From Scatophagus argus (Eukaryota > Chordata > Actinopteri > Scatophagidae), in contig NC_058513.1 in the NCBI RefSeq assembly GCF_020382885.2, forward strand, positions 14,843,641 to 14,907,640: a DNA stretch of 64,000 bases. The letters are read 5' to 3'. Below are positions 6,124-23,868 of the stretch, piece after piece. The notes beneath the pieces are model-generated. The model did not search any database. It worked only from the letters and a program-made list of their open reading frames with translations, and had not been told where the DNA came from. Made by a program: the position numbers and the translations under genes. Numbering within the stretch: the stretch's first letter is position 1; each line of letters opens with the position of its first letter.

Positions 6124-23868
<17,745 letters not shown>

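Follow-up and report, generated by a model that had tools for sequence, protein, structure and literature searches.

Trypsin-like proteases carry the motif TAAHC at the His57 site, and their activation switch, formed by Ile16 at one end and Asp194 at the other, brings order to the oxyanion hole and the S1 pocket. The ligands of MET and RON, whose S1 domain is inactive, also carry kringles and are not known to contain SRCR domains. S1 pseudoproteases are described as serving as ligands, as cofactors or decoys, and as scaffolds; PRSS23 has an intact triad, lacks the switch and exhibited no detectable protease activity, and trypsin-like enzymes are severely affected when this switch alone is lost (PMC13194640). 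Neurotrypsin (PRSS12, motopsin) consists of a kringle, four SRCR domains and a trypsin-like domain, in this order. According to PMC6966886, agrin is its only known substrate, its activity is reportedly modulated by heparan sulfate and calcium, the last SRCR domain adjoins the protease domain, and little is known of the roles of the kringle and SRCR domains. In zebrafish and stickleback, ndst3 and prss12 are described as lying tail to tail, with their 3′ ends 5–6 kb apart (PMC4359090). Zebrafish si:ch211-51a6.2 is described as an uncharacterised prss12 homologue without a direct human or rat orthologue, downregulated in optic nerve regeneration and belonging to the validated miR-29b/miR-223 target group (PMC4534052).

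The present study concerns a gene on the minus strand of a 64,000-nucleotide stretch of the Scatophagus argus genome (NC_058513.1, positions 14,843,641 to 14,907,640), hereafter the window, to which coordinates refer unless another contig is named. This gene (C21; C21, C10, C2 and C12 denote contigs of one genome) shares its domain order with neurotrypsin and with a paralogue on C10, but alone lacks His57, the activation N-terminus, Asp194, Ser214, Trp215 and other residues, and it lies at a locus separate from that of prss12. The Ile16–Asp194 switch is gone from the window gene as it is from the S1 pseudoproteases PRSS23 and PRSS35, whereas His57, retained in the triad of PRSS23, is missing from the window gene too; the kringle–SRCR architecture, present in the window gene, is unmentioned for PRSS23 and PRSS35 in the available part of PMC13194640. 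The MET and RON ligands resemble the window gene in that their inactive S1 domain is described as serving binding (PMC13194640), although the receptors themselves are not implied for the window gene. The prss12-like zebrafish gene (PMC4534052) may correspond to the C10 or to the C21 gene. In our literature search, outside which most subscription journals lay, no paper joining neurotrypsin with a pseudoprotease was found.

Gene structure

The window gene was modelled with 14 exons encoding 907 amino acids, and all 13 introns were GT–AG and in phase. Twelve exons, from 14504 to 6124, had AG acceptors and GT donors and joined in phase throughout, while exons 1 and 2 are predictions picked from short candidate lists. 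The features, all on the minus strand, are as follows.

23797..23868, minus strand: predicted exon 1, signal peptide; donor GTACGT, in-frame join
20653..20695, minus strand: predicted exon 2, 43 bases; polypyrimidine cag acceptor, CAG/GTAAGT donor
14262..14504, minus strand: kringle exon; Pfam Kringle 2.3e-13
13344-13206 and 13132-12954, minus strand: SRCR1; colinear tblastn, gene model
12157-12010 and 10224-10046, minus strand: SRCR2; Pfam, colinear tblastn, gene model
9668-9527 and 9428-9208, minus strand: SRCR3; Pfam, colinear tblastn, gene model
8273-8132 and 8046-7765, minus strand: SRCR4; Pfam, colinear tblastn, gene model
7438..7560, minus strand: protease exon 1, with TSAYC; acceptor ...ccgtcag, donor gtaaat
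7074..7342, minus strand: protease exon 2; Asp102 kept (Asp676)
6124..6665, minus strand: protease exon 3; Pfam Trypsin 2.4e-15

A kringle, an SRCR array and a C-terminal trypsin-like domain were thus found in neurotrypsin order by Pfam and colinear tblastn, and the Pfam Trypsin profile matched the joined protease exons at 4.5e-35. The predicted protein was 46% identical over 795 aligned columns to human neurotrypsin, for which a provisional, hand-entered sequence served in all alignments.

Exon 1 was chosen by eye among eight rows at four donor sites; the other candidates, also judged by eye, were dropped because they resembled a signal peptide less or did not suit exon 2. A second in-frame ATG lies nearby at 23895, and the observed/expected CpG ratio over 23501-24000 was 0.91, a value equalled in several other stretches of the window. 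In exon 2, 6 of 13 residues agreed with the mature N-terminus of the hand-entered human sequence. Two further places in the window scored as high, and the case for this exon therefore rests on its strong splice sites and its phase. The second SRCR4 exon also carries the linker and an altered activation site, SKRR–NQGE. Past the usual C-terminus the protein continues for about 80 low-complexity residues (6369-6124, minus strand), many of them His, Thr, Glu or Arg, up to the stop codon; by comparison, the C10 protein stops 8 residues past the last conserved motif.

Losses in the protease domain

The original prediction, that a neurotrypsin-like protease has lost its catalytic histidine, was borne out. 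Positions 7449-7451 read GTA on the plus strand and hence TAC (Tyr) on the coding strand, within TSAYC. A PDB sequence search returned 524 distinct sequences at E ≤0.001, with plasminogen (2.1e-29) the best among the matches listed, and aligned this Tyr to the plasminogen equivalent of His57. The related genes of the same genome have TAAHC (C10) and TSAHC (C2) at this site. The independent 14-exon model numbers the residue 634, as had been proposed; Cys42 and Cys58 were both retained in the landmark alignment, and the exon 7560-7438 joins both neighbours in phase with an acceptor and a donor. An alternative exon carrying the His had been named as an observation that would overturn the claim. 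A six-frame scan of the whole window for [TS][AS][AG]HC matched twice, at 36793 (minus strand) and at 61095 (minus strand), each time outside the gene; no alternative exon of that pattern is therefore present within it.

The losses extended well beyond His57. We read out 37 landmark positions of our own choosing in a four-sequence alignment (C21, C10, C2 and the hand-entered human sequence), the chymotrypsin numbering of which is established for the family and was placed via the human sequence. Twelve of them (Ile16, Ile17, Gly19, Gly43, His57, Gly142, Ser190, Asp194, Pro198, Ser214, Trp215 and Gly226) were lost, in the C21 copy only among the three genome copies compared; the C10 and C2 genes retain all twelve. 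The site Ile16–Ile17–Gly18–Gly19 reads NQGE, protease exon 2 has an in-frame deletion of 8 residues relative to C10, and protease exon 3 contains GNSGGG (Asp194 to Asn776, with Ser195 kept as Ser777) and GVVAGG (Ser214 to Ala797, Trp215 to Gly). Asp102, Asp189, Gly193, Ser195 and Gly196 were kept, as were all ten landmark cysteines, which differed in loss from the other 27 landmarks (Fisher p 0.015). Ser at position 55 is common to the C2 gene and was not scored as a loss.

Judged from the sequence, the triad and the activation switch are thus both broken: Tyr stands at 57 beside a kept Asp102 and Ser195, and RR–NQGE and GNSGG provide neither an exposed Ile or Val at position 16 nor its Asp194 partner. 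With a recognisable S1 fold, lost catalytic residues and an open frame, the window gene has the sequence properties of an S1 pseudoprotease, and the earlier claim that such a protease would be unable to work normally is well supported.

Paralogues and orthology

The own-genome search gave 82 matches, of which the best candidates were scored, and revealed at least two further colinear neurotrypsin genes besides the window gene. These genes and the NDST loci of the genome are as follows.

C10, ~21.981-21.992 Mb, minus strand: neurotrypsin-like gene; own-genome search
C2, ~16.702-16.721 Mb, minus strand: neurotrypsin gene; own-genome search
C2, 16661212-16679019, plus strand: NDST locus (PF12062), profile match
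C10, 21918585-21923699, minus strand: NDST locus (PF12062), profile match
C12, 13561974-13565397, minus strand: NDST locus (PF12062), profile match

The C10 gene carries RRRRIIGGEKSLR, TAAHC, YDIALL, GDSGGP and SWG, and the C2 gene RQRRIIGGENSLR, TSAHC, YDLALV, GDSGGP and SWG. The C10 model was spliced at AG/GT sites with the exon phases of the window gene, which were imposed by script; in the C2 model a few junction residues were placed by hand, and both models exclude the gene starts. Colinearity and the four-sequence tree grouped the window gene with the neurotrypsin genes of its own genome. In that tree C21 and C10 were sisters, with 67 supporting sites versus 9 and 5 for the alternatives and a support of 100/100. 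Protease identity to the hand-entered human sequence was 171/254 for C2, 141/254 for C10 and 96/241 for the window gene.

The NDST locus on C2 (plus strand) faces the C2 neurotrypsin gene (minus strand); because this is the arrangement of zebrafish and stickleback, the C2 gene was taken as prss12, and of the three protease domains its own is also nearest to the human one. The separate C2 gene and its NDST linkage rule out the window gene as the prss12 orthologue. PF12062 had no match on C21, with the three loci listed lying elsewhere in the genome, and no Pfam match was obtained in the 6.1 kb past the stop of the window gene, on the plus strand of 1-6100, where a facing ndst3 would be expected, or on the minus strand of 2300-6100; as positive control, the kringle, SRCR and trypsin exons were found in the same way. 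Beside the 3′ end of the C2 gene, a Pfam scan of the plus strand of 16691500-16701300 detected no NDST domain, so the NDST–prss12 gap on C2 seems to exceed 5–6 kb, which makes the agreement with those two fish less close. The C10 copy, within 21976001-21996000 of that contig, is separated by 57 kb from an NDST locus, the two not facing each other; this proximity suggests that the C10 gene goes back to an earlier copy of the NDST–neurotrypsin block. A search with 13 peptides of window neighbours (some presumed coding) against 70 kb of C10, 50 kb of C2 and 10 kb to the left of the window gave no shared neighbour at E 1e-3, so that the teleost genome duplication is not supported as the source of the gene. 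No relatives were confirmed in scans of viral contigs and genome contigs.

Rate and place of change

The identity between C21 and C10 was 65/77 in the kringle, 84/105 in SRCR1, 87/109 in SRCR2, 71/119 in SRCR3, 69/102 in SRCR4, 3/14 in the linker and 135/243 (56%) in the protease domain, C10 being the nearest paralogue. Changes unique to C21 or to C10 were counted at sites where C2 and the hand-entered human sequence agree. The counts (C21/C10) were 0/1 in the kringle, 3/4 in SRCR1, 3/5 in SRCR2, 5/5 in SRCR3 and 1/2 in the linker, as against 14/1 in SRCR4 (p 0.001) and 41/11 in the protease domain (p 3.6e-5). The kringle and SRCR1–3 together thus showed no speed-up (11 versus 15), and SRCR3, whose divergence comes close to that of the protease domain, has changed equally on both branches. 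The tree branches of C21 and C10 were 0.71 versus 0.15 for the protease domain and 0.27 versus 0.14 for the kringle–SRCR part; the C21 protease domain has changed about five times faster than that of C10.

The pre-set contrast of the protease domain with all kringle–SRCR sites gave a Fisher p of 0.069; the contrasts setting SRCR4 apart, with p 0.002 and 0.0003, were chosen after the counts were known. SRCR4 (8273-7765, minus strand) sped up with the protease domain as if the two were one functional unit, and their joint change is coherent because the last SRCR domain adjoins the protease domain in neurotrypsin. Between C21 and C10, dS was about 2.1 and saturated, whereas dN was 0.25 over the whole alignment and reached 0.35 in the protease domain, indicating that the duplication is old. 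Pairwise dN/dS was 0.12 for the protease domain and 0.10 for kringle–SRCR3, values that do not tell the domains apart and are untrustworthy because dS is saturated.

Neighbouring genes

A TRIM gene at 554-2227 (minus strand) has RING, B-box, coiled coil and PRY–SPRY parts; since the pieces between RING and B-box use different frames, this copy has probably decayed, unlike the neurotrypsin-like gene with its open frame. A second TRIM gene, at 16710-18533 (plus strand), is nested on the opposite strand within the second intron predicted for the window gene and has one stop-to-stop frame of 607 codons. Rather than NDST, as at C2, the window gene has as neighbours cdr2-like (plus strand), polr3e (minus) and eef2k (minus), consecutive within 31966-61130. 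Pfam matched polr3e (RPC5_C, 7.1e-78) and eef2k (alpha kinase, 4.5e-21), the latter also matching eEF2K in PDB; the first gene, which had no Pfam match on its last exon, we take to be cdr2-like, and the order presumably resembles that of human 16p12.

Discussion

Considering these results, we propose that the window gene arose by an old duplication of a neurotrypsin-like protease gene that still looks active, and that the window gene itself now encodes a pseudoprotease, a reading to which we assign a probability of about 0.75. A maintained pseudoprotease paralogue, perhaps acting as a ligand or decoy, accounts best for the available evidence. The frame runs through 907 codons without an internal stop, and no frame break or lost splice site was found. 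The protease domain of C21 has accumulated an excess of about 137 residue changes, which, if neutral, would be expected to bring about 7.6 stops; none was seen, the chance of which is about 0.0005. Within this domain the length differs from that of C10 at seven internal places, each time by whole codons, which with a chance of one-third per place would happen in about one case in 2,000. This finding and the open frame are not separate pieces of evidence, and one of the seven differences, at the SP2/SP3 junction, depends on which splice site is chosen; an eighth listed difference was the alignment end and was left out. These sums are rough and follow a simple neutral model.

The rival that survives best is a unitary pseudogene, slowly decaying and stop-free by chance, in which the lost residues mark the end of selection. 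The accelerated change of SRCR4 and the protease domain, together with the run-on tail, would also be compatible with gradual decay starting at the 3′ end, and the neighbouring TRIM gene at 554-2227 is frame-broken. Nevertheless, the unbroken codons, the 13 GT–AG introns, the ten retained landmark cysteines, the whole-codon length changes and a kringle–SRCR1–3 part no faster than that of C10 all speak against it, making this rival improbable. That the protein retains some catalysis through a rearranged active site, Tyr replacing His, would draw on the presence of Asp102, Asp189, Gly193, Ser195 and Gly196; however, His57 is gone, no Ile16–Asp194 pair is left for the oxyanion hole and S1 pocket, Ser214 and Trp215 are lost and loops are shortened, and the effect of losing the switch alone is described as severe (PMC13194640), so that residual activity appears highly improbable. 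The Tyr codon is one base from CAC, but an assembly or sequencing error, or one individual's allele, making a normal protease look dead is hardly credible when twelve landmarks differ across all three protease exons and the activation-site exon, the frame stays open and identity to the nearest paralogue is just 56% over the domain.

On the preferred reading of a maintained pseudoprotease, the protein, with its predicted signal peptide, would be made, folded and probably secreted, and would be unable to cut. A dead protease domain joined to a kringle–SRCR1–3 part no faster than that of C10 suggests an independent role for these N-terminal domains, through which the protein may act by binding. 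That they are holding, and that the genome has two active-looking paralogues, are the grounds for our first, tentative guess, weighed against other ligand or scaffold roles, that the protein may be a competitor, which would occupy the partners of the C2 and C10 neurotrypsins, glycosaminoglycans or agrin, and so damp agrin cleavage. More doubtful is the narrower idea of a dedicated dead neurotrypsin serving as a natural antagonist, which by way of its kringle and SRCR1–3 would displace the active ones from agrin, from heparan sulfate or from some further synaptic partner, so shielding agrin from cleavage; if true, it would represent a protease–decoy pair born of gene duplication. As a putative neurotrypsin that binds and does not cut, the window gene may offer a way to separate cutting from binding in this family.
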